From the NCBI GenBank assembly GCA_025999455.1, contig AP024683.1, forward strand, positions 627,501 to 691,500: a DNA stretch of 64,000 nt. Direction: 5' to 3'. Of the stretch, positions 53,573 through 64,000 are shown in pieces. The notes beneath the pieces are model-generated. The model was given only the letters and a program-made list of their open reading frames with translations. It was not told where the DNA came from and did not search any database. This stretch comes from Geminicoccaceae bacterium. Its GTDB lineage: Bacteria; Pseudomonadota; Alphaproteobacteria; Geminicoccales; Geminicoccaceae. Every line of letters starts with the position of its first letter. The first letter of the stretch is position 1. Position numbers and translations under genes: made by a program.

Positions 53573-54871
53573 TCAGCTCCGCCGCTGCGCGGCGCGGAGC
53601 GCCCGGTCGAGATCGGCGATGATGTCGTCGGGATCTTCGAGACCGACGGAAAGCCGGATCATGTCGTCGCGGAGACCGACGGCGGCGAGCTGCTCTTCAC
53701 CGAGCTGGAGGTGGGTCGTCGAGGCCGGGTGGATGACCAGGGTCTTGGCGTCGCCGACATTGGCGAGATGCGAGGCGAGCCGGCAGCTCTCGATGAAACG
53801 CGCGCCGGCCGCCCGCCCGCCCTTGACGCCGAAGCTCACGATCGACCCGGCGCCGCGCGGCAGCAGTCGCTTGGCGAGGTCGTGATCCGGATGATCCGGG
53901 AGGCTCGGGTGGATCACGTAGCCGACCGCGGGATGGTCGACCAGGAAGCGCAGGACGCGCTCGGTGTTGGCGACGTGCCGCGCCATTCGAAGGGGCAGGG
54001 TCTCCACGCCTTGCAGGATGTAGAACGCGTTGTGCGGGCTCAAACACGCACCGAAGTCGCGCAATCCCTCGGTACGGGCGCGGGCGGCGAAGGCCGCGGG
54101 CCCGAAGGTCTCGGCATAGGTCACGCCGAGATAACCTTCGTAAGGACGGCTCAAGGTCGGGAACTTGTCGTTCGCCGTCCAATCGAAACGCCCGCCGTCG
54201 ATCAGGATGCCGCCGATCGCCACACCGTGCCCGCCGAGCCACTTGGTGGCCGAATGAATCACTAGGTCGGCGCCGAGCTCGATCGGCCGCGCGAGGTAGG
54301 GGGTGGCGAAGGTGTTGTCGATCGCGAGCGGCAGGCCGTGCACGTGGGCGATCTCGGCGAGCCTCGGGATGTCGAGAACTTCGAGGCCGGGATTGCCGAT
54401 CGTCTCGCCGAACAGGAGGCGCGTATTGGGGCGGATCGCCGCTTCGAACGCGCGGAGATCGCGCGGATCGACGAAGGTCGTCTCGATGCCGAAGCGGGGC
54501 AGGGTGAGCCGAAGCAAGTTGACGCTGCCGCCGTAGAGGTTACGGGCGGCCACGATGTGACCGCCCGCCCCCATCAACGTGACGATCAAAAGATGGAGGG
54601 CAGCCTGCCCGCTCGCCGTGGCGACCGCGGCGACACCGCCCTCGAGCGCGGCCAGACGTTCCTCGAGGACGGCCACCGTCGGGTTCGAGATCCGCGTGTA
54701 GATGTGGCCGGCACGCTCCAGGTTGAACAGCCCGGCGGCCTGATCCGTGTCGCGAAAGACGTAAGAGGTCGTCTGATAGATCGGCACGGCACGCGCGCCG
54801 GTCGTCGGGTCCGGGACCTGACCGGCGTGCAGCGCCAGCGTGTCGAACTTGAGGATCTTCGGGTCGGCCAT
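53573..54871 (-). CDS. metY: O-acetylhomoserine sulfhydrylase / aminocarboxypropyltransferase
   Basis: This 432-residue PLP enzyme of the Cys/Met metabolism family makes homocysteine from O-acetylhomoserine and sulfide. Key blocks are FDTLALHAGQVPDPTTGARAVPIYQTTSYVF, TRISNPTVAVLEERLAALEGG, AIDNTFATPYL, the PLP lysine in VIHSATKWLGGHG, and SLGVEDPDDI-like SVGLEDPDDIIADL at the end. Length and sequence favour MetY over MetZ or MetB. ATG 54871 has GGTGGAG eight bases upstream. A stem-loop lies in the leader at 54888-54917. Confidence 0.93.
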   Translation of the reverse strand: MADPKILKFDTLALHAGQVPDPTTGARAVPIYQTTSYVFRDTDQAAGLFNLERAGHIYTRISNPTVAVLEERLAALEGGVAAVATASGQAALHLLIVTLMGAGGHIVAARNLYGGSVNLLRLTLPRFGIETTFVDPRDLRAFEAAIRPNTRLLFGETIGNPGLEVLDIPRLAEIAHVHGLPLAIDNTFATPYLARPIELGADLVIHSATKWLGGHGVAIGGILIDGGRFDWTANDKFPTLSRPYEGYLGVTYAETFGPAAFAARARTEGLRDFGACLSPHNAFYILQGVETLPLRMARHVANTERVLRFLVDHPAVGYVIHPSLPDHPDHDLAKRLLPRGAGSIVSFGVKGGRAAGARFIESCRLASHLANVGDAKTLVIHPASTTHLQLGEEQLAAVGLRDDMIRLSVGLEDPDDIIADLDRALRAAQRRS

Positions 54872-54951: not shown

Positions 54952-55161
54952 TCAGCCGCGCCCCGTGCGATCGTTCGGCGCGGGCCCGAGGATCATCGTG
55001 CCGAGCTGACCCACGACCGCCCGCCGCGCATCCTCGTCCAGGCCGAGCGCGTCGACAGCGGTCTGGATCGCAGTGAGAGCGGCCCTTACGACGCCGAGCC
55101 AAAGCGTATCGAGAAGAACCTTCCAAGCGCGCGCGAGGGAGAAGCTCGACATCGGGCTCAT
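54952..55161 (-). CDS. Hypothetical small protein downstream of tailspike
   Basis: This 69-residue protein is not recognised. It starts MSPMSSFSLARAWKVLLDTLWLGVVRAALTAIQTAV, with an amphipathic or weakly hydrophobic helix, followed by a polar tail. The ATG overlaps the tailspike stop by four bases (ATGA), so it belongs to the prophage minus-strand operon as its last gene. The position is where lysis or membrane proteins can occur, but the hydrophobic segment is too short and charged to call a holin. Confidence 0.55.
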   Translation of the reverse strand: MSPMSSFSLARAWKVLLDTLWLGVVRAALTAIQTAVDALGLDEDARRAVVGQLGTMILGPAPNDRTGRG

Positions 55162-57521
55162 CCTTCGATGTAGATCGAGTTGGGTTGCGAGGAATCGCTC
55201 GTGACGAGGTGGACCGTCACGACACGACCGAGCTCGGTGATCTCGAAGCAAGGCACGCCACCGGGGCTCACGACGTTGGACCGACGGAGCGTGAGCTGCG
55301 GTGAGCTACCGGATCGCGCCATGATGCGGATCGGATTGTTGACGGTCACGATCCGGAACATGGCCGCGGTGAGGCCCGCGGGCATGCTCGCCGCTTCGAA
55401 CGCCACGTAGCTCACCGGGTCGGACGAGCTGATCCGCAGGAGCTGCCCGACACGGCTCGAAGGAACGACGTAGGGTGTCGTCTCCGAGTTGCTGCCCTGG
55501 CTCGCGTTGGTCCAGCCCAGCGTCTCTTCGTAAGCGAACTCGCCGTCCGGCAACGTCGTTCCGTAAACCTCGATTTTGCCGGATGTCGGATTGTGTCGGA
55601 GGAGGATCGTGACGAGCTGGTGTTGGCGGCGGATCACGAGGGTGCTGCCACCGTTCGGGCTCTTGATCTCGACGTTCGCGTCGCCGGCTTGGACCGTGAC
55701 GCTGCCGGTGCCCTGCCGGATCAGCCAGAACATCGCCGAGGGATCGCCCGCTTCCAACAGCGGCAGCGTGTTGCCGCCGATCGTGTAGGTGGAAGCGATC
55801 GTGATCGTGATCGGGTTCGCGTTGTTGATCCGGTGAACCCGGCCGAAGTCGGCCGGCGAGAGATTGAAGCTGGCGTTACGCTCGCGTTCGGGAACCCGAC
55901 CCGGCAAGCTGACGCCCGGGCTCCAGCCGTTGGCCAAGCGGGTGTACCAGCCCGGACCGGCCCAGGGCGTGCCGGCGGGCAAGGCCGACGGTGTCTCGCA
56001 ATAGACGACGAACCCGTTGCGCGGTTGGCTCGGCTCGGCGGTGCGTGGCGGGAGATAGAGCGGATCGGCGATCTCGACCCGGTGCAGCGGACCGGCGGGG
56101 TGCCCCTCGCCGTTGCCGATCGCGATCCGGCTCTCCTGGCCGGACGCGTAGCCTCGCGGGCGATAGATCCGGGCGACGTTGAACGAGGTGACGTCGATAC
56201 CGAGGGCTTGGCGCGGGCTCGCGTTCTTGATGTTGCCGTCGCGCGTCGGGCTCGTCCCGTCGTGGAAATCGCCCGTGAACAGGAGCTGCCCGACATTGGG
56301 GGCGCGCAGCTGCACGGCGGCGCTGCCTTGGCTCGGCTCGTTGAACCAGAGGGCCGACGGCAGGAAAGTGTCCCCTTCGCCGGCACGGGCCGCGCCGTCG
56401 TCGCTCGCCACGCCCACCGGATTGAGCTGTCCGAAGCCGTTGCAGTTGGCGAAGAAGCAGCGCATCACCGAGCCGGGCAGCGTCGCGTTGCTGTCGACCC
56501 ACGGCGTCGTACAGTTGAGCACGTAGCAATTGATGAAGCTCACGTGCCGCGTGCTGCCGGAATTGCCGCCGCCGGCCGCACCTTCGACACGGAACGCCGT
56601 CTCCAGGAACTCGACGTCGCAATTGACGAGCGCCGAGCGCATGACGCGCTTGAGCCAGATACCCGTGCTCCCGGCCGGTGCTCCGGCACTGTTGACCTGG
56701 ACGCGGTTCAACAGGAGATTGTTCATGACGTAGAGCTTGCCGGCGACGGCCGAGCCCGTGTGCTCGATGAGGATGCCGGTCGTGCCCGCGCCCTTGAGCT
56801 TGATCGCGACTTCCTCGATCAGGCCGTCGCCGTAGTTCACGCCGGCCCCGGCCTCGTCGGCATAGAGGCGGATGCCGCTCGCGTAGAGATCGTGCGCGCC
56901 ACCACCCGGTCCGGCCGAAATTTCGCGGATGCAGCACTCGTTGGCGTTCTCGAGCTCGAGGCACCAGCCGGTGGGTGCACCCCCTTCGAAACGCAGCTTC
57001 TCGGCGAAGAACTCGTGGCCCTTGGCGAGAATCCCGGACAGGGTCATGCGGATCGAGAGGTCCTCGATCGAGGAGCGGTTCCAGTCGTTGGTCGCCGAAG
57101 GCTCGACCGTGTAGGGGCCGTCGTTGCGGTGGAAGACGAAGGCACGCTCGGCTGCGGCTTCGATGATCGTCACGTCTCGCCCGGCGCCGACGATCCGGCG
57201 GCGCGGCTTGACCTGGACCACGCTCGCGAGCCGATAACGGCCCGCCGGAACGTGGACCTCGAGCGCCGCGTCGAGTGCCGCCTGGAAGGCCGGGGCGTCG
57301 TCGGTCGTGCCGTCACCGACGGCGCCGAAGTCGCGGACGGAGACCCGCTCGGCGAGCTTGTCGCGCACCAGTCGGCGTGGGGTCGCGCCGGACAGGCGCC
57401 AGGCCAGAGCGCCGACCGAGGCGCGGCGCGTCAGGTTGCCCGCCGCGGTCGACAACACGAGCTGATCGTCGGGCTCGGCGACGGCCGCAGCCGGGAGCTC
57501 GTGGATCTGTCGCGTGCTCAT
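55158..57521 (-). CDS. Phage tailspike with pectate-lyase-like beta-helix
   Basis: This 787-residue receptor-binding protein has a short particle-binding N-terminus (MSTRQIHELPAAAVAEPDDQLVLST, TRRASVGALAWRL). A Pectate_lyase_3-type helix entry VRDFGAVGDGTTDDAPAFQAALDAALEVHVPAGRY follows, then a long right-handed beta-helix with repeating short strands to about residue 400. The C-terminal part holds two repeated modules with NPITITIASTY and NPIRIMARSG patterns. Such spikes bind or depolymerise surface polysaccharide. It is on the opposite strand from the head genes. Confidence 0.88.
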   Translation of the reverse strand: MSTRQIHELPAAAVAEPDDQLVLSTAAGNLTRRASVGALAWRLSGATPRRLVRDKLAERVSVRDFGAVGDGTTDDAPAFQAALDAALEVHVPAGRYRLASVVQVKPRRRIVGAGRDVTIIEAAAERAFVFHRNDGPYTVEPSATNDWNRSSIEDLSIRMTLSGILAKGHEFFAEKLRFEGGAPTGWCLELENANECCIREISAGPGGGAHDLYASGIRLYADEAGAGVNYGDGLIEEVAIKLKGAGTTGILIEHTGSAVAGKLYVMNNLLLNRVQVNSAGAPAGSTGIWLKRVMRSALVNCDVEFLETAFRVEGAAGGGNSGSTRHVSFINCYVLNCTTPWVDSNATLPGSVMRCFFANCNGFGQLNPVGVASDDGAARAGEGDTFLPSALWFNEPSQGSAAVQLRAPNVGQLLFTGDFHDGTSPTRDGNIKNASPRQALGIDVTSFNVARIYRPRGYASGQESRIAIGNGEGHPAGPLHRVEIADPLYLPPRTAEPSQPRNGFVVYCETPSALPAGTPWAGPGWYTRLANGWSPGVSLPGRVPERERNASFNLSPADFGRVHRINNANPITITIASTYTIGGNTLPLLEAGDPSAMFWLIRQGTGSVTVQAGDANVEIKSPNGGSTLVIRRQHQLVTILLRHNPTSGKIEVYGTTLPDGEFAYEETLGWTNASQGSNSETTPYVVPSSRVGQLLRISSSDPVSYVAFEAASMPAGLTAAMFRIVTVNNPIRIMARSGSSPQLTLRRSNVVSPGGVPCFEITELGRVVTVHLVTSDSSQPNSIYIEG

Positions 57522-57688
57522 GGCTCGGGCTCCACGGCCAGCCGCTCGCCCGTTTCGGTGACGAGGGGCTCGCCGAATTCGGTTGCGAGGACGGGAGGAG
57601 CGGAGGGCGGCGGAGGCGGCCTCACGTCGCTGCGGTCGCGGCTCGTGATGCGCAGCCCCGCCGCCGTCGGCGCGAGGCAGAGCGGCAT
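57518..57688 (-). CDS. Small prophage protein (56 residues)
   Basis: This short gene lies between two phage genes and fits the spacing exactly. Its stop overlaps the tailspike ATG (ATGA) and its ATG lies one base after the preceding stop. The product begins MPLCLAPTAAGLRITSRDRS, has a Pro-run in the middle (PPPPPSAPP), and ends TEFGEPLVTETGERLAVEPEP. Small proteins of this kind precede tailspikes in related phages; function unknown. Confidence 0.65.
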   Translation of the reverse strand: MPLCLAPTAAGLRITSRDRSDVRPPPPPSAPPVLATEFGEPLVTETGERLAVEPEP

Positions 57689-57689
57689 G

Positions 57690-58016
57690 TCAGATGCGAC
57701 CGATCACGTAGGCATCGCAGGCGTCGCCCTCGGCGATGAAGGCGACGTGCCGCTCGCCTCGGCGGAGCGGAATGTCGAGATAGTGGCCCGGGGCCAGGAA
57801 GGGGCTGGAGACCGGGTCGGCCGTGACGGTCTCGTCGCCGATCTCGAACCGGCAGGGCCCGGTCGCGTAGAGGGTGACGACCTCGATGTCGCTCGGGATC
57901 GGGATCGGATTGCGGACCGAAGTGGCGCCGACGGCGATCTTCTGGGTTCCGCGGTAGTCGAACCCGAGGATGCCGATCGGGTTGCCGTTGTCGTCGAGGG
58001 GTAGGAGCAAGCTCAT
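57690..58016 (-). CDS. Small conserved prophage protein (108 residues)
   Basis: This 108-residue protein is predicted to be mainly beta: MSLLLPLDDNGNPIGILGFDYRG, then NPIPIPSDIEVVTLYATGPCRFEIGDETVTADPVSSPFLAPGHYLDIPL and a closing HVAFIAEGDACDAYVIGRI. The pattern (value, tolerance, beta-sandwich) resembles small phage decoration or tail accessory proteins, but I cannot name it. It is the first gene of the minus-strand tailspike operon, 53 bases after the promoter at 58069-58097. Confidence 0.6.
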   Translation of the reverse strand: MSLLLPLDDNGNPIGILGFDYRGTQKIAVGATSVRNPIPIPSDIEVVTLYATGPCRFEIGDETVTADPVSSPFLAPGHYLDIPLRRGERHVAFIAEGDACDAYVIGRI

Positions 58017-58068: not shown

Positions 58069-58097
58069 ACCCTACCGGCGCATAGGATGATTGTCAA
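58069..58097 (-). promoter_or_regulatory. Promoter of the prophage tailspike operon with ATCCTA motifs
   Basis: On the minus strand TTGACA (58097-58092) and TAGGGT (58074-58069) are separated by 17 bases. ATCCTA occurs three bases after the -35 hexamer (58088-58083), and a second copy (58107-58102) lies just before it. The same TTGACA-N3-ATCCTA layout recurs at the portal promoter, suggesting a shared operator. Confidence 0.6.
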
Positions 58098-58180: not shown

Positions 58181-58822
58181 TTACTGGCTCACCCAGAGGA
58201 TTCGCGCGAGCCAAGCGAGCTTGTCGGCTTCGATCGCCTCTTCGCCCTTGTCGGCACCGAGCTCGGTCAAGACGACCCGCTGCGCCGTCCGGCGAACCAC
58301 GACCCCGAAGAGCACCTGGCCCGCACGCAACCGCGCGATCACCCGATCGCCGCGCCGGATGCTGCTGCCGGGCGAGACCACCACGATGTCGCCCGATCGG
58401 TAAAAGGGGGGTGCCACGTCGCGATCGAGCTCGATCGCGTAGGCGTGCTCGTCGTCGATCGCCGGATAGTCGATCTCTTCCCAGCCGCCGGCTTGCGGGA
58501 ACCCGGCCGCGTCGAGACAGGCGCCCCGCTCGACTTCGCCGAGGCCCGTGCACCGCAGGCGGAAGCCGTGACCGACGGGACTGCCCGGCGTGCCACCCTG
58601 CATGAGCTCGACGAACTCGCGCATCGAGGTCGAGGTCGCATCGAGTACCTTGGCGACACTCTCGGTGCTCGGCCAGCGCGGCTTACCCTGCTTCGTGATC
58701 CGTTTGCTCTTGTTGAAGGTGGTCGGGTCGAGGCCGGCCCGCTTGGCGAGGCCGGACGCGGAGAGATTGTGGCGCGCGGCCAAGCGATCGATCCCGTCCC
58801 AGACCTGCTTGTGGGTGAGCAT
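58181..58822 (-). CDS. XRE/S24-type transcriptional regulator lacking the catalytic dyad
   Basis: This 213-residue regulator has an N-terminal helix-turn-helix domain (IDRLAARHNLSASGLAKRAGLDPTTFNKSKR, then RWPSTESVAKVLDATSTSMREFVELM) and a C-terminal S24/LexA-like domain (EHAYAIELDRDVAPPFYRSGDIVVVSPGSSIRRGDRVIARLRAG). Related alphaproteobacterial proteins carry DSMxPxYRDGD and a later VMAK lysine. Here the Ser position reads Val (DVAPP) and the Lys position Gly (VLFGVV), so self-cleavage should be impossible. An ATCCTA motif abuts its start codon, hinting at autoregulation. It is divergent from the head operon. Confidence 0.85.
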   Translation of the reverse strand: MLTHKQVWDGIDRLAARHNLSASGLAKRAGLDPTTFNKSKRITKQGKPRWPSTESVAKVLDATSTSMREFVELMQGGTPGSPVGHGFRLRCTGLGEVERGACLDAAGFPQAGGWEEIDYPAIDDEHAYAIELDRDVAPPFYRSGDIVVVSPGSSIRRGDRVIARLRAGQVLFGVVVRRTAQRVVLTELGADKGEEAIEADKLAWLARILWVSQ

Positions 58823-58875: not shown

Positions 58876-58904
58876 TTGACAGGAATGCGTCCTGTCAGTA
58901 GGTA
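58876..58904 (+). promoter_or_regulatory. Promoter/operator upstream of the 58912 gene
   Basis: TTGACA at 58876-58881 overlaps a perfect 7-bp inverted repeat GACAGGA-ATGCG-TCCTGTC (58878-58896). An AT-rich TAGGTAAAAAT follows at the -10 region. The repeat covers the -35 box and spacer, where a bound repressor would block transcription. It differs from the ATCCTA motif at the other two prophage promoters. Confidence 0.6.
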
Positions 58905-58911
58905 AAAATGC

Positions 58912-59358
58912 ATGCAACGCCTCCGGCCTCCGCCGAGCCGCGGCCACGCCTGCGAGCCGTGCGCCGACGGTCCCCGCGCGATCGTCGTCTTCGAAGACCG
59001 TGCCGCAGCGCTCAGCCTGAAATGGTTGCGCCCCGGTTTTCGACACTGCTTCTGCCTCGTCCGTCGCCCGGCCGGCTGGATCGTCTGCGATCCACTCAAA
59101 TCGGTGACGCGTCTCGAGGTCGTATCGTGCTACGAAGAGCGGGAGCTCTTGGCGCATTATCGCGCCCTGAACATGAAAGCTCTGGTCGGTAGCTGTTTTT
59201 CGGTCCAACCGAAATTGCCGGTCTTCAGGCCGCTGACCTGTGTCGAGATCGTGAAGCGCGTCATCGGGCTACACGCGGCGACCGTGTGGACGCCCCATCA
59301 GCTCTACCGAGCCCTGCGTCGGGCGGGCTTCGTGGACGAGCCTTCGGCGGCCCTCTAG
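58912..59358 (+). CDS. Prophage protein, possible permuted NlpC/P60-like peptidase
   Basis: This 148-residue protein is not firmly recognised. A His-containing strand GFRHCFCLVRRPAGWIVCDP is followed ~70 residues later by LTCVEIVKRVIGLHAATVWTPHQLYRAL, where Cys starts a helix. His before a helix-initial Cys is the order found in circularly permuted NlpC/P60 (YiiX/LRAT-like) enzymes, which cut peptide or acyl bonds. If correct it may act on the cell wall during infection or lysis. It is divergent from the regulator and precedes the portal gene. Confidence 0.55.
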   Translation: MQRLRPPPSRGHACEPCADGPRAIVVFEDRAAALSLKWLRPGFRHCFCLVRRPAGWIVCDPLKSVTRLEVVSCYEERELLAHYRALNMKALVGSCFSVQPKLPVFRPLTCVEIVKRVIGLHAATVWTPHQLYRALRRAGFVDEPSAAL

Positions 59359-59362
59359 CCGG

Positions 59363-59391
59363 TTGACAAAAATCCTAAAACGGTAAATGAT
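59363..59391 (+). promoter_or_regulatory. Promoter of the prophage head operon
   Basis: TTGACA (59363-59368) and AATGAT (59386-59391) are 17 bases apart, 30 bases before the portal start. ATCCTA (59372-59377) lies three bases after the -35 box, the same arrangement as in the tailspike-operon promoter on the other strand. Confidence 0.65.
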
Positions 59392-59420: not shown

Positions 59421-60947
59421 ATGGCGCCGGAACCCCTGGAGCTCCTCGCCGCGCGTGTCGCTCGGGCGAAGGCGCGACGTGCGGCTTGGGAGCCGCTGTG
59501 GCAGGAATGCTACGGCTTCGCACTTCCCCAGCGCGCCGGCGGCTTCGCCGCGGGTGGGGCCCTTCGGCTCGCCGATCGCTTGTTCGACGGCACGGCGATC
59601 GACGCCGTCGAGCAGCTCGCGGCGAGCTTGATGGCGGAACTCGTTCCGCCCTGGTCGGAATGGTTCGGACTGCGCCCGGGGATCGACGTGCCGCCCGACG
59701 AGCGGGGCGTCGTCGCCGAGCTGCTCGAGACGGTCGCGCGCCGGCTGCAGGGCCATTTCGATCGGTCGAACTTCGCCGTCGAAATCCACCAATGCTTCCT
59801 CGATCTCGTGACCTGTGGGACGGCGCACCTCCTCTTCGAGGAAGCACCTCCTGGAAGCGGCTCGGCCTTCCGCTTCACCGCCGTGCCCGTCGCCGAAATG
59901 TTCCTCGACGGTGATCACGGTGGCGAGATCACGCGCTTCTATCGCGTGACCACCCACACGGCCAAAGGCCTCGTCGAGCGGACGCCGGCATCGGCGTTGC
60001 CGGCCCAGCTGGTCGACCGCTTGGCACGCGATCCCGACCGGCCGATCGAAGTCGTCGAGGCGGTGGAGCCGGAGCCGGGTCGCGGCATGCGCTTCGTCCG
60101 GTTCCTGCGCCCCGGTGAAGCCGGGTTCGAGAGCGGCATCGTCCTCGGCGAGGGGCATTTCGAGACCTGCCCCTTCCATTGCTTCCGCTGGGTGAAGGGT
60201 GCGGGCGAGCTCTACGGTCGTTCGCCGGTCATGGCGGCCCTGCCGGACATCAAGACCGCCAACAAGGTCGTCGAGCTCATCCTCAAGAACGCCTCGATCG
60301 CCGTCACCGGCATCTGGCTCGCCGAAGACGACGGCGTCTTGAACCCCGCCAACATTCGGCTCCAGCCGGGCGCCATCATCCCGAAGGCCGTTGGCTCGGC
60401 GGGTCTCACGCCGTTGCAAGCGCCCGGACGGTTCGACGTCTCCCAGCTCGTCCTCGAGGACCTGCGCGCGCGCATCCGCCACACGCTCCTCGTCGATCGG
60501 CTCGGGCCCGTGCGCGGGCCGAAGATGACCGCGACGGAAGTCCTCGAGCGGTCCGCCGAAACCTCGCGGCTCCTGGGTGCCGTGTTCGGGCGGCTTCAAG
60601 CCGAGCTGCTCGTCCCGCTCGTCCAACGCGGTCTCGCGATCCTGCGCCGCCGCGGCGAGGTGCCGGCCCTGCCGATCGACGGGCGGGCGGTCGAGATCGA
60701 CTACCGCTCCCCGCTGGCCCGCGCCCAGGCCCGCGCCGACGTGCAGAACACCCTCATGTGGCTCGACACCGTCTCGCGGTTGGGGCCCGAGGCGCGTGCC
60801 GTGGTCGACGCCCGCGCGGCGGCGATCTGGCTCGCCCGCTCGCTCGGGGTCGCGGGCGAGCTGGTCCGCGAGGACGGTGAGCCGAGCGGGACGACGAGCG
60901 CCGCGTCGCTCGCGGGCCTCACCGCGGAGGATCGCGATGCGACGTGA
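59421..60947 (+). CDS. Phage portal (T7-type head-tail connector) protein
   Basis: This 508-residue portal protein forms the dodecameric DNA gate of the capsid. Features of the podovirus connector family (PF12236) include RRAAWEPLWQECYGFALPQR, LFDGTAIDAVEQLAASLMAELVPPWSEWFGL, GTAHLLFEEAP, WVKGAGELYGRSPVMAALPDIKTANKVVELILKNASIAVTG, and GPKMTATEVLERSAETSRLLGAVFGRLQAELL. AAAGGTG precedes ATG 59421; an upstream GTG would add nine residues. It is the first gene of the head operon. No terminase gene precedes it. Confidence 0.93.
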   Translation: MAPEPLELLAARVARAKARRAAWEPLWQECYGFALPQRAGGFAAGGALRLADRLFDGTAIDAVEQLAASLMAELVPPWSEWFGLRPGIDVPPDERGVVAELLETVARRLQGHFDRSNFAVEIHQCFLDLVTCGTAHLLFEEAPPGSGSAFRFTAVPVAEMFLDGDHGGEITRFYRVTTHTAKGLVERTPASALPAQLVDRLARDPDRPIEVVEAVEPEPGRGMRFVRFLRPGEAGFESGIVLGEGHFETCPFHCFRWVKGAGELYGRSPVMAALPDIKTANKVVELILKNASIAVTGIWLAEDDGVLNPANIRLQPGAIIPKAVGSAGLTPLQAPGRFDVSQLVLEDLRARIRHTLLVDRLGPVRGPKMTATEVLERSAETSRLLGAVFGRLQAELLVPLVQRGLAILRRRGEVPALPIDGRAVEIDYRSPLARAQARADVQNTLMWLDTVSRLGPEARAVVDARAAAIWLARSLGVAGELVREDGEPSGTTSAASLAGLTAEDRDAT

Positions 60948-61209
60948 GCCGTCGACCGAGGGCTGGAACGCGCTGGCCGACGTGCCCCCCGCGGTCGAGC
61001 CGATCGACGACCTCGCCCGGGCCTTCGCCCACTGCTTTCGCGACGGGGCCGGCGCCGTCGTCCTCGAGCACCTCCGCAAGGTGTTCCTCGATCGGCGTCT
61101 CGGACCCTCGGCCAGCGACGCCGAGCTCCGCCACGTCGAAGGCCAGCGATCGGTCGTGGCCCACATCCTCGCGTTGATCGAGCGCGGGCGAGGGCCGACC
61201 AACGAATGA
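60937..61209 (+). CDS. Bbp19-like phage protein
   Basis: This 90-residue protein matches the Bbp19-type phage family by its core AFAHCFRDGAGAVVLEHLRKVFLDRRLGPSASDAELRHVEGQRSVVAHILALIERG. Its place between portal and scaffold genes is the usual one in T7-like prophages of proteobacteria; the function is unknown. GGAGG lies eight bases before ATG 60937. It overlaps the portal gene by 11 bases and the scaffold gene by four (ATGA). Confidence 0.78.
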   Translation: MRREPSTEGWNALADVPPAVEPIDDLARAFAHCFRDGAGAVVLEHLRKVFLDRRLGPSASDAELRHVEGQRSVVAHILALIERGRGPTNE

Positions 61210-61985
61210 AGGAACCTGCCGTGAACAGTGAAAACGAGGAACTCTCGGAGGTCGAGCGGACCGCCTCTGCCGACGAGGCCACGCCGGCGCCGACGAAACC
61301 GTCCCGGCCGGCCGAGATCCCGGAGAAGTTCTGGGATCCGGAAGCGGGAACGGTCCGCGTCGACGCCCTCTTGCGTTCCTATCTCGAGCTCGAGCGCAAA
61401 CTCGGTCGCAGCCTGCCGCAACCCGAAGGGCCCGACGACGCGGCCGCGCGGGAACGGCTCTTGGCGGCACTCGGGCGTCCGGCCCGGCCCGAGGATTACA
61501 CGATCGAGACCCGGAGCGAACTGCTCGCTCCCGATCCCGACCTCAATGCGCGATTGCACGCCGCCGGCTTCACCCAGAGCCAGGTCCAGCTCGTTTACGA
61601 CCTGGCCGCCGAGCGCTTGCTCCCGATGGTCGCCCGCTTGAGCGAGGAGGCGGAGGTCTCCCGCCAGGTCGAGCGCCTCGCCACGCATTTCGGGGGTCAC
61701 GATCGCTGGCGCGAGGTCGCGCGTGAGATCAAGACCTGGGCACGAGCCAATCTGGAGCCCGAGGTCTACGAAGCTTTGGCGAGCAGCTACCAGGGAGTTT
61801 TGGCACTGCACTGGATGATGCGGAGCAGCGAGCCCGAACTCCTCGGTCGCGCCGAAGACACGAGCGGACAGCTCGACGAGCAGACTCTCGATCGTATGGT
61901 CCGCGATCCGCGCTACTGGCGGGATCGAGACCCGAACTTCATCGCGCGCGTCACCGAGGGCTTCAAGAGCCTGTACGGCGACTGA
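61206..61985 (+). CDS. Phage scaffolding / capsid assembly protein
   Basis: This 259-residue acidic protein is predicted to be highly helical. The block IPEKFWDPEAGTVRVDALLRSYLELERKLG is a hallmark of T7-like scaffold (gp9-type) proteins, which guide coat assembly and then leave the prohead. An N-terminal low-complexity region is rich in Glu, Pro and Thr. It sits between the Bbp19-like and coat genes as in other podoviruses. The ATG overlaps the previous stop by four bases. Confidence 0.85.
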   Translation: MKEPAVNSENEELSEVERTASADEATPAPTKPSRPAEIPEKFWDPEAGTVRVDALLRSYLELERKLGRSLPQPEGPDDAAARERLLAALGRPARPEDYTIETRSELLAPDPDLNARLHAAGFTQSQVQLVYDLAAERLLPMVARLSEEAEVSRQVERLATHFGGHDRWREVAREIKTWARANLEPEVYEALASSYQGVLALHWMMRSSEPELLGRAEDTSGQLDEQTLDRMVRDPRYWRDRDPNFIARVTEGFKSLYGD

Positions 61986-62105: not shown

Positions 62106-62924
62106 ATGTCGACGAGCATCGATCAAGCCTTCGTCAAGCAATTCGAGCGTGAGGTCCACGCCGCTTACCAGCGGCAGGGCTCCAAGCTGCGACCGACCGT
62201 TCGCAACAAGACCAACGTCCGCGGCAGCACGACCGTCTTCCAAAAGGTCGGCAAGGGCATGGCCGGCACGAAGGCGCGCCACGGCCTCGTTCCGGTGATG
62301 GACCTCGAGTTCGACAACGTCGAGGCCGTCCTGGTCGATTATTACGCCGGCGAGTGGGTCGATCGGCTGGACGAGCTCAAGACCAACATCGACGAGCGTC
62401 AGGTTCTCGCGAGCGCCGGTGCCTACGCGCTCGGCCGCAAGACCGACGAACTCATCATCGCGGCGCTGGCCCAGAGCCCCCACTCGGTGGGTTCGCCCAG
62501 CGAGGGCCTGACCAAGCAGAAGGTCCTCGCCGCCTTCGAGCTCTTGGGTAGCCACGACGTCCCTGACGACGGTCAGCGCTTCGCCGTCGTCGGCTGGAAG
62601 CAGTGGTCGGAACTCCTCGCGCTGCCGGAGTTCGCGAGCGCCCAGTTCGTCGGCGAAGATCAGCTGCCCTGGCGCGGTGCCCAGGCCAAGACCTGGCTCG
62701 GTACGGTCTGGATCGCCCATTCGGGCCTGCCGATCCAGGGCGGTGTCCGCACCTGCTTCTGGTACCACCGCAGCGCCGTCGGCCATGCGGTCGGCCAGGA
62801 AGTGACCACCGACATCACCTGGCACGGCGATCGCGCCGCCCACTTCGTCGCCAACTGGATGTCCCAGGGCGCCGTGCTGATCGACGCCCAGGGCGTCGTC
62901 AAAATGCCCTGCCTGGAGGCGTGA
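62106..62924 (+). CDS. Phage major capsid protein
   Basis: This 272-residue coat protein resembles the Phage_capsid_2-type HK97-fold family: MSTSIDQAFVKQFEREVHAAYQRQGSKLRPTVRNKTNVRGSTTVFQKVGKGMA, DDYYAGEWV-like VDYYAGEWVDRLDELKTNIDERQVLASAGAYALGRKTDELII, and the C-terminal ITWHGDRAAHFVANWMSQGAVLIDAQGVVKM. GAGG precedes ATG 62106; a codon pair earlier at 62100 is less well spaced. It should be the most abundant product of the head operon. Confidence 0.9.
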   Translation: MSTSIDQAFVKQFEREVHAAYQRQGSKLRPTVRNKTNVRGSTTVFQKVGKGMAGTKARHGLVPVMDLEFDNVEAVLVDYYAGEWVDRLDELKTNIDERQVLASAGAYALGRKTDELIIAALAQSPHSVGSPSEGLTKQKVLAAFELLGSHDVPDDGQRFAVVGWKQWSELLALPEFASAQFVGEDQLPWRGAQAKTWLGTVWIAHSGLPIQGGVRTCFWYHRSAVGHAVGQEVTTDITWHGDRAAHFVANWMSQGAVLIDAQGVVKMPCLEA

Positions 62925-62926
62925 TC

Positions 62927-63196
62927 ATGGCCTTCGACCCGAAAAACCTGAGCGCTCTCGCCTACGCCAACGGCTTCACGCTCTGGCACTACCGCACCGC
63001 CGACACGATGGCCGACGTGAGTGCCGCCGGTTACTTCAACGCCGCCTCGGCGATGCTCCGGGTGGGCGATTTCGTGATCGCCAACGCGGGCATCGGGGTG
63101 GTGCCCACGCACGGCCTGCTCGTCGTGCGCGGTAACGCCGGCGGGGTCGTCGACCTCTCCGACGTGACCCCGGTCGGCTCGACCAACGCCACCTGA
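62927..63196 (+). CDS. Small phage head protein (decoration-like)
   Basis: This 89-residue protein begins MAFDPKNLSALAYANGFTLWHYRTADTMADVSAAGYFNAASAMLRVGDFVIANAG, a pattern seen in small proteins directly after podovirus coat genes that probably decorate or stabilise the capsid. It is Gly/Ala/Val-rich with predicted beta strands. It begins three bases after the coat stop. The role is inferred from position and family resemblance. Confidence 0.72.
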   Translation: MAFDPKNLSALAYANGFTLWHYRTADTMADVSAAGYFNAASAMLRVGDFVIANAGIGVVPTHGLLVVRGNAGGVVDLSDVTPVGSTNAT

Positions 63197-63288: not shown

Positions 63289-63666
63289 GTGGGACCGACA
63301 GCTCGTCGCTCTTGGCGCGCGGTGTCGTGCCTCGTCGTCGCGCTCGCCGCGGCCGTGCCCTCTCCGTCGCGGGCGGACGAGGCATCGTCTTGCGAGGGGC
63401 CCGGGCTCGAGGCGCTCGCCCGGCACCTGCCGCAGGCGAACCGCTTCGTCGCGGCGCGCGACATGCTCCCGGCTCTCGTGGGCCTTTGGCCGGTCGATCC
63501 GGCCCTGGCCGCCCGCCTCGAGCCCGACGGCGCCACGATCTTCGCCCGCGACGGCCGGCCCCTCCTCGTCGCGCTCACCCGCGGGGACTGCCTCGTGGCT
63601 GCCTTCGAGACCGATCCCGCCGCCCTCTGGCGTCGCCTTCGCGAGACGCTCGGACCGGCGATCTGA
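63289..63666 (+). CDS. Secreted small protein within the phage operon
   Basis: This 125-residue protein has a clear signal peptide (RRSWRAVSCLVVALAAAVPSPSRA) and then an unknown ~100-residue domain containing two cysteines, one in EASSCEGPG and one in LTRGDCLVAAFE, that could form a disulfide. The start is GTG at 63289 with GGAGG eight bases upstream; a longer frame from 63259 lacks a site. A periplasmic protein between the head and tail genes is unusual; possibilities are a lysis accessory, superinfection factor or host-beneficial cargo. Confidence 0.62.
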   Translation: MGPTARRSWRAVSCLVVALAAAVPSPSRADEASSCEGPGLEALARHLPQANRFVAARDMLPALVGLWPVDPALAARLEPDGATIFARDGRPLLVALTRGDCLVAAFETDPAALWRRLRETLGPAI

Positions 63667-63694: not shown

Positions 63695-64000
63695 ATGCCG
63701 CAAACCGACGTGACCTTGTGCGCGACCGCGCTCGCCAAGCTCGGCGCGCGGCCGATCACCTCGTTCGACGAGCCCACGGCCGAGGCCGAGACGGCGGCAC
63801 GATTGTACCCCGTCGTCCGCGATGCGACGCTCATGGCGCATCCCTGGACCTTCACGTTGGCCCAGGCGTGGCTCGAGCGGGATCCGGAGCCTCCGGCGGG
63901 CGATTTCTCCTTCGCGTTCCGCCTGCCGCCCGACATCTTGCGCACCCTGTCGGCGGGCAGTGGTGGCAGCGGGCGGGGTTTGGTCTACCGCGTCTTCGGT
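63695..64000 (+). CDS. Phage tail tubular / head-tail adaptor protein, N-terminal part
   Basis: The first 102 codons are visible and the gene continues beyond the window. MPQTDVTLCATALAKLGARPITSFDEPTAEAETAARLYPVVRDATLMAHPWTFTLAQA matches the start of T7 gp11-like tail tubular protein A / head-tail adaptors, which attach below the portal. ACGGAG precedes the ATG by eight bases. Downstream tail genes presumably follow outside the window. Confidence 0.82.
   Translation, partial: MPQTDVTLCATALAKLGARPITSFDEPTAEAETAARLYPVVRDATLMAHPWTFTLAQAWLERDPEPPAGDFSFAFRLPPDILRTLSAGSGGSGRGLVYRVFG

Follow-up and report, generated by a model that had tools for sequence, protein, structure and literature searches.

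The S24 auto-repressors LexA and lambda cI combine a helix-turn-helix (HTH) with an S24-fold domain and lie divergent to the genes that they control. Gene-transfer agents (GTAs) of the RcGTA type are, in the cited part of PMC10883770, mostly vertically inherited in Alphaproteobacteria, and the RcGTA-like, BaGTA-like and Brachyspira GTAs are treated in the cited part of PMC9662315 as independent exaptations. The same source, as excerpted, gives the cluster of BaGTA, the type II GTA of Bartonella, a size of ~14 kb in its first description and traces it by an HK97-type capsid protein. In Caulobacter, the GTA activator gafYZ is repressed by Xre proteins, according to the cited section of PMC10688885. 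FpGTA of Faecalibacterium has a podovirus-like gene set in two operons, and the available extract of PMC12946183 calls it the first podovirus-like GTA-like element and mentions neither a repressor nor an integrase. In the open PMC literature, as excerpted, we found no report of a podovirus-like GTA of Alphaproteobacteria or Geminicoccaceae, which is weak evidence of novelty given that subscription papers and preprints lie outside that scope.

The locus described here lies in a window of 64,000 nucleotides, the whole stretch that was analysed, from a 3.76-Mb Geminicoccaceae genome. Its regulator gene (58181-58822, minus strand) resembles LexA and lambda cI in domain composition and divergent orientation, but Ser, Lys and Ala-Gly are replaced in its product and it adjoins structural rather than replication genes. 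The block around it, one contiguous stretch of about 13 kb in the window genome, shares with RcGTA-like elements a vertical mode of inheritance, structural genes that have no replication or integration genes close by and, in some genomes, residence at several loci, and differs from RcGTA in its podovirus-like portal, scaffold and capsid families. It would join BaGTA as an alphaproteobacterial GTA cluster, from which the HK97-type capsid protein of the latter would set it apart, and it shares a podovirus-like gene set with FpGTA, whose host, unlike ours, belongs to the Bacillota.

On the plus strand, the block runs from a small conserved protein, u148 (58912-59358), through the portal or head-to-tail connector (59421-60947, PF12236), a Bbp19-like phage protein (60937-61209, PF25181), a T7-type capsid assembly or scaffold protein (61206-61985, PF05396) and the major capsid protein (62106-62924, PF19821 and phrog_3437) to a small conserved block protein (62927-63196, phrog_18004). 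Homologue comparison identified the next two genes as a small protein kept in the genus and rare beyond it (63322-63666) and a conserved 190-aa block protein of which only the start lies in the window, whose end it crosses (63695-64000). Past that end follow a 651-aa tail protein (phrog_376), a 145-aa protein and the large terminase (phrog_38), extending to 68208 in continued window numbering. On the minus strand, a 108-aa protein (57690-58016) leads the leftward tail arm, with a 56-aa ORF kept in five of five congeners (57518-57688), a tail-spike-like pectate-lyase protein (55158-57521, PF12708) and a 66-aa ORF with no assigned function and low-identity homologues in all five congeners (54952-55152). 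Among 64 fetched loci, many of which end early at contig or fetched ends, u148 was present in 63, the scaffold gene in 56, the capsid gene in 44 and the terminase gene in 35. The u148 protein has an invariant His45 and Cys110 and matched no Pfam or NCBIfam family; a Foldseek search gave nothing significant (best E 0.25). Its model aligned in VIA-align with TseH (6v98; Z 7.4, 4.3 Å over 119 residues) and with a cysteine peptidase (3kw0; Z 5.6, 4.0 Å over 101 residues). This weak papain-like or permuted NlpC-P60-like resemblance gives a lead to a possible cell-wall peptidase.

The initial annotation had described the regulator as an S24-type protein with Val at the nucleophile and Gly at the general-base position, and proposed structure prediction and S24 alignment as a check. 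The 213-aa product matches Pfam Peptidase_S24 at E=2e-5 and 24.7 bits, barely over the cut-off of 23.3 (a dyad-intact relative, L093, scores 82.5 bits), and its HTH_26 match falls below the Pfam threshold. Searching the PDB with phmmer gave no significant match, and the similarity came from a fold search. AlphaFold2 predicted an HTH followed by a LexA/cI-type domain (pLDDT 87.7, pTM 0.57), in which residues 1-77 resemble Xre HTH proteins (2b5a; Z 8.4, 2.3 Å, 69 aligned) and residues 87-213 resemble RecA-bound lambda cI (8gmu; Z 12.1, 3.0 Å, 117 residues) and Thermotoga maritima LexA (3k2z; Z 12.0, 2.8 Å, 114 residues). The HTH and S24 fold that mark S24/LexA-like regulators are thus both present, and the Ser-Lys dyad and the Ala-Gly (or Cys-Gly) linker are both missing. 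In an alignment with 43 relatives (44 rows), the catalytic region contains no gaps; the GDSMxP column pairs with RDVAPP, which puts V136 at the nucleophile position, and VMAK pairs with VLFG, which puts G173 at the general-base position, both as annotated. The annotation had overlooked that the linker Ala-Gly (QAG in relatives) is replaced by V97-E98, so that the scissile site is gone as well. No stand-in Lys is evident: among 24 Geminicoccaceae homologues no Lys is conserved from residue 103 on, and 11 have none at all in that stretch. An alternative active site was rejected on this ground, and the alignment placed no other Ser/Lys pair in the site. RecA-stimulated self-cleavage is therefore unlikely for an S24 fold without Ser and Lys, as the annotation had argued, and more unlikely still because the Ala-Gly site is also lost.

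The genome's own LexA (L065) has kept GDSM and, at the matching place, a Lys, which makes the loss specific to the block regulator. The regulator gene occurs once in the window genome, even at E up to 1, and a paralogue of a host regulator was thereby ruled out. Its dN/dS within the genus is 0.075-0.149, and the degenerate C-terminal domain by itself, at 0.08-0.20, is under purifying selection, consistent with a role kept in dimer formation or ligand binding. Since the predicted fold is kept and the gene is under purifying selection, we regard the protein as a maintained and probably non-cleavable regulator.

We next consider what it regulates. Homologues of the regulator were found in 38 of 60 relatives, including all five congeners and 23 of 25 further Geminicoccaceae, and homologues of the portal in 33 of 60, including all five congeners and 21 of 25 further family members. 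The named contigs nearest to the regulator are Geminicoccaceae MAGs at 81-90% identity. The five congeners have homologues of every gene between the 54952 ORF and the terminase, both included, in unchanged order, with the left-flank host genes in common and the right flank common in part. Two genomes of other genera (G006 and G017) retain the regulator, u148, portal, Bbp19-like, scaffold, capsid, tail and terminase proteins and two further conserved proteins, but the tail-spike arm is absent from them.

Six block proteins were concatenated (50 genomes, 2333 columns), and the resulting tree was compared with an RpoB tree. The two have 29 of 47 splits in common, against a mean of 0.22 and a maximum of 2 for shuffled labels, and their distances correlate with a Mantel r of 0.74 that none of 999 permutations reached. 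The RpoB tree contains 22 of the 27 block branches with support of at least 95, and the 17 Geminicoccaceae form one clade in both trees with support of 100 each. Four pairs of well-supported splits conflict, all of them deep (G092, G165/G265/G346 and G247), and reflect either transfer or long-branch error. In its inheritance the block has thus largely followed the host tree across the class, and it occupies one locus in the genus; these deep conflicts aside, its descent is vertical, as expected of a GTA. Rough genus-level dN/dS values, calculated with synonymous sites near saturation, are 0.10-0.18 for the capsid, 0.10-0.26 for the portal and 0.07-0.18 for the terminase gene, next to 0.05-0.11 for the adjoining host gene at 53573. 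The cluster in the window genome comes with no integration or replication module, and the only two PF00589 (integrase) matches in that genome lie ~410 kb and 2.63 Mb away.

These results bear on the reading in which the block belongs to a true temperate podovirus family with a decayed repressor and is a prophage, or a remnant to be lost. Every structural gene of the block is a phage gene, IMG/VR lists many such contigs as viruses, and in other genomes the portal or capsid gene can be split or interrupted by stops (for example G070, G165, G371, G045, G230, G081, G214 and G384). Yet the portal reaches E < 1e-160 in 26 of the 30 genomes compared within the genus and the family, with the block at the same locus in the genus; its tree is host-like, and dN/dS of the capsid, portal and terminase genes is well under 1. 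Its G+C (0.689) lies between those of the host flanks (0.660 and 0.701), and the closest sequenced isolated phage, the 34-kb Pelagibacter phage EXVC031P (Hodr), shares 36% identity in the portal and 51% in the capsid. The regulator was found in none of the phage records searched. In some genomes the modules are dispersed over the chromosome with their genes intact. The capsid profile matched in 66 of 70 genomes and singly in 65, the exception (G045) being two pieces of a broken gene. On the same contig, capsid and portal lie ~70 kb (G081), 134 kb (G247), 153 kb (G204), ~244 kb (G329), 1.2 Mb (G406) and 1.9 Mb (G008) apart. The second locus in split genomes holds the capsid, small, 190-aa and tail proteins and usually the terminase, and in G008 only the capsid and the small protein. 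In these genomes, genes so far apart cannot be packaged as one viral genome; the window genome has its block in one piece. Four further apparent capsid splits (G080, G051, G182 and G076) were not counted, because block genes sit at contig edges there and the splits are probably contig ends. Neither an integrase near the block of the window genome nor the mobile, sporadic distribution of an active temperate prophage was found, and a prophage repressor in the usual sense, as the initial annotation had it, was rejected on distribution, synteny and the host-like tree: regulator and structural genes are co-inherited at one locus in the genus. Overall, we consider a temperate podovirus unlikely.

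We therefore favor as the probable explanation that the regulator is dedicated to an ancient alphaproteobacterial cluster that derives from a podovirus, is passed on vertically and is most likely GTA-like. The fold, the loss of Ser, Lys and Ala-Gly, the divergent linkage, the co-inheritance and the purifying selection on which we draw were all established by computation; the role of a particle that packages host DNA would follow from the anatomy of the cluster.

The linkage survey covered 385 alphaproteobacterial genomes, of which 101 matched the portal query at E 1e-10 or better and 115 the regulator query at E 1e-5 or better. A portal was called strong from a score of 310 bits upward, with the split copies in G081 and G214 added (a cut-off set after the table had been seen), and 55 genomes qualified. 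The regulator lay within 5 kb of the portal in 44, divergently in every one, and these 44 represent 25 family codes, counted by eye. In the other 11, the regulator was elsewhere or on another contig (seven) or without a match (four), some of these cases being explained by contig ends. IMG/VR includes no fewer than 547 contigs with the capsid gene and 135 with u148, and the regulator was present in 32 of 34 IMG/VR or named-contig loci having u148 and more than 1.3 kb of upstream sequence. Many IMG/VR proviruses of 10-20 kb (for example L190, L211 and L266) have their start 3 bases ahead of the final codon of the regulator, so the virus caller sets its border there; such catalogued proviruses look like the host-inherited cluster.

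Candidate operators were found at the block's own promoters. An inverted repeat, TGACAGGA-N5-TCCTGTCA (58877-58897, unstranded), between the divergent genes overlaps a TTGACA, and its outer part is kept in six of six congeneric genomes; it would likely be an operator/promoter. By eye, the regulator/u148 spacer reads CCTACTGACAGGA..CTGTCAA in all six genomes of the genus. A second candidate, AGGATTTTTGTC (59365-59376, minus strand), overlaps a TTGACA upstream of the portal gene, whose promoter reads by eye as TTGACA-N4-(T/A)CCTA in all six genomes. The third, AGGATGATTGTC (58084-58095, plus strand), lies upstream of the 57690-58016 gene, whose promoter, also read by eye, is TTGAC(A/G)-N4-TCCTAT in four of the six. 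Of 63 loci, 25 contain AGGAWNWTNNTC in their S24-proximal 150 nt, compared with 0.4 (maximum 3) in shuffles. The window genome contains six TAGGAWNWTNNTC sites, AGGATGATTGTC among them, two in the block (at 58083 and 59365) and four outside, and two of the reversed control pattern. By number, two sites in the window are not above chance (at least two were found in 22 of 100 shuffles), and the operator case therefore draws on position and conservation. The overlap of candidate sites with TTGACA suggests repression.

These data also weigh on a reading in which the regulator acts as a general transcription factor of the chromosome, stands beside the block by accident and mainly controls other genes. 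Strong portal homologues are lacking in 64 of the 115 genomes with a regulator, Hyphomicrobiales copies (L036-L043) show no block gene in the fetched flanks, and four of the six TAGGAWNWTNNTC sites lie outside the block. We fetched 40 of the 68 non-linked regulator loci; four of these 'solo' loci (L131, L142, L152 and L166) had block genes nearby, so that solo counts are upper bounds. Against accident stand a divergent linkage held in 25 families while the flanks change and the conserved candidate operators at the block's own promoters, and we judge this reading quite improbable.

Returning to a regulator that serves a GTA-like cluster, we scored the dyad in 112 regulators, that is, 117 rows minus five: G346 and G265 with S24 replaced, the truncated G030, the too distant G289 and the IMG/VR row L044. 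It was intact in 68; another 38 had lost it and six had lost half of it. Ala-Gly was retained in 67 of the 68 intact proteins versus one of the 38 lacking both residues. All 24 Geminicoccaceae proteins lack the dyad, 23 of them both residues, with G024 having the column Ser and no Lys; outside the family, 68 of 88 homologues keep it. The absence in Geminicoccaceae is thus more than chance. In an S24 tree calculated without the catalytic columns, the lost state needs six changes, at least five of them forced by starred branches, which indicates that the dyad was also lost independently in other lineages. G051 and G182 (lost) adjoin the intact G279 in this tree, and G213 (lost) adjoins the intact G094. 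Within one genus (g190), the dyad is intact in G232 (L072), half-lost in G323 (L089) and lost in G400 (L106). The G323 block is itself broken, with no capsid and a truncated portal. Comparison with LexA and cI suggests that the intact triad is ancestral. In family f136, G346 and G265 have no S24 domain; in its place, a complete orotate phosphoribosyltransferase (NF001729; 318 and 317 bits against a cut-off of 245) is joined in frame to the HTH. The S24 domain is intact in their sister G165. The PyrE-fused, block-linked regulators, at L109:3323-4231 (minus strand) and L110:15773-16693 (plus strand), come from two genera of one family. Some repressors are degraded by proteases such as ClpXP, but with a core devoid of conserved Lys and a linker devoid of Ala-Gly, continued SOS control through cleavage of the regulator, by another residue pair or a host protease, is highly improbable.

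We propose that the regulator, which we take to be a repressor and not an activator, would bind TAGGA-type operators that cover the TTGACA in three promoters (its own, that of the portal and that of the tail arm) and, dimerized by the LexA-like domain that it has kept, would repress them. The intact regulator of most relatives could be cleaved through RecA, presumably the ancestral state; in Geminicoccaceae and several other lineages, this release step appears to have been lost. With self-cleavage gone, release must come from another input, and derepression might arise from a drop in the amount of regulator, from a ligand or partner protein, or from an activator acting upstream; the initial annotation had suggested a ligand, an antirepressor or growth state. 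This suggests a domesticated particle, possibly a gene-transfer agent, that is no longer wired to SOS. A broader reading, in our view evenly balanced between right and wrong, is that the cluster is a further class-wide, ancient podovirus-derived GTA, independent of RcGTA, whose ancestral master regulator was a LexA-like, DNA-damage-cleavable repressor. SOS control would then have been lost repeatedly, with Geminicoccaceae and at least three other lineages dropping dyad and cleavage site together and f136 swapping S24 for orotate phosphoribosyltransferase. If true, GTA production in many non-RcGTA Alphaproteobacteria would rely on another kind of particle, one with a short tail, and many of the 'proviruses' of 10-20 kb that viral databases list would probably be host machinery. 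The natural series of intact, half-lost, lost and domain-swapped regulators would let the evolution of SOS control in a domesticated virus be tested, and the f136 swap would tie the system to pyrimidine metabolism.

We also searched for TIGR02218, which we take to be an RcGTA protein marker. The control search matched only Caulobacter, and the window genome and its five congeners contain no TIGR02218 match. In the class survey, it was found in 55 of 385 genomes, and the 55 strong-portal genomes were all free of it (Fisher p 2.2e-4, with no correction for shared ancestry). Among the 64 genomes with a regulator and no strong portal, 22 carry TIGR02218 (G033, G034, G039 and others), and a solo regulator might serve an RcGTA-type GTA.

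A 5-kb phage record from the human gut (MT838907.1, 'Bacteriophage sp.') shows 53% portal and 59% capsid identity to the block and might represent, instead of a phage, a cluster of this kind from an alphaproteobacterium of the gut. Finally, beyond the window and ~10.6 kb downstream of the terminase, an 889-aa protein (G000:C1:706273-708942; L046:14773-17442), found in four of the five congeners, has endolysin-like (phrog_7) and papain-like peptidase matches and is possibly a lysis or entry part of the system.
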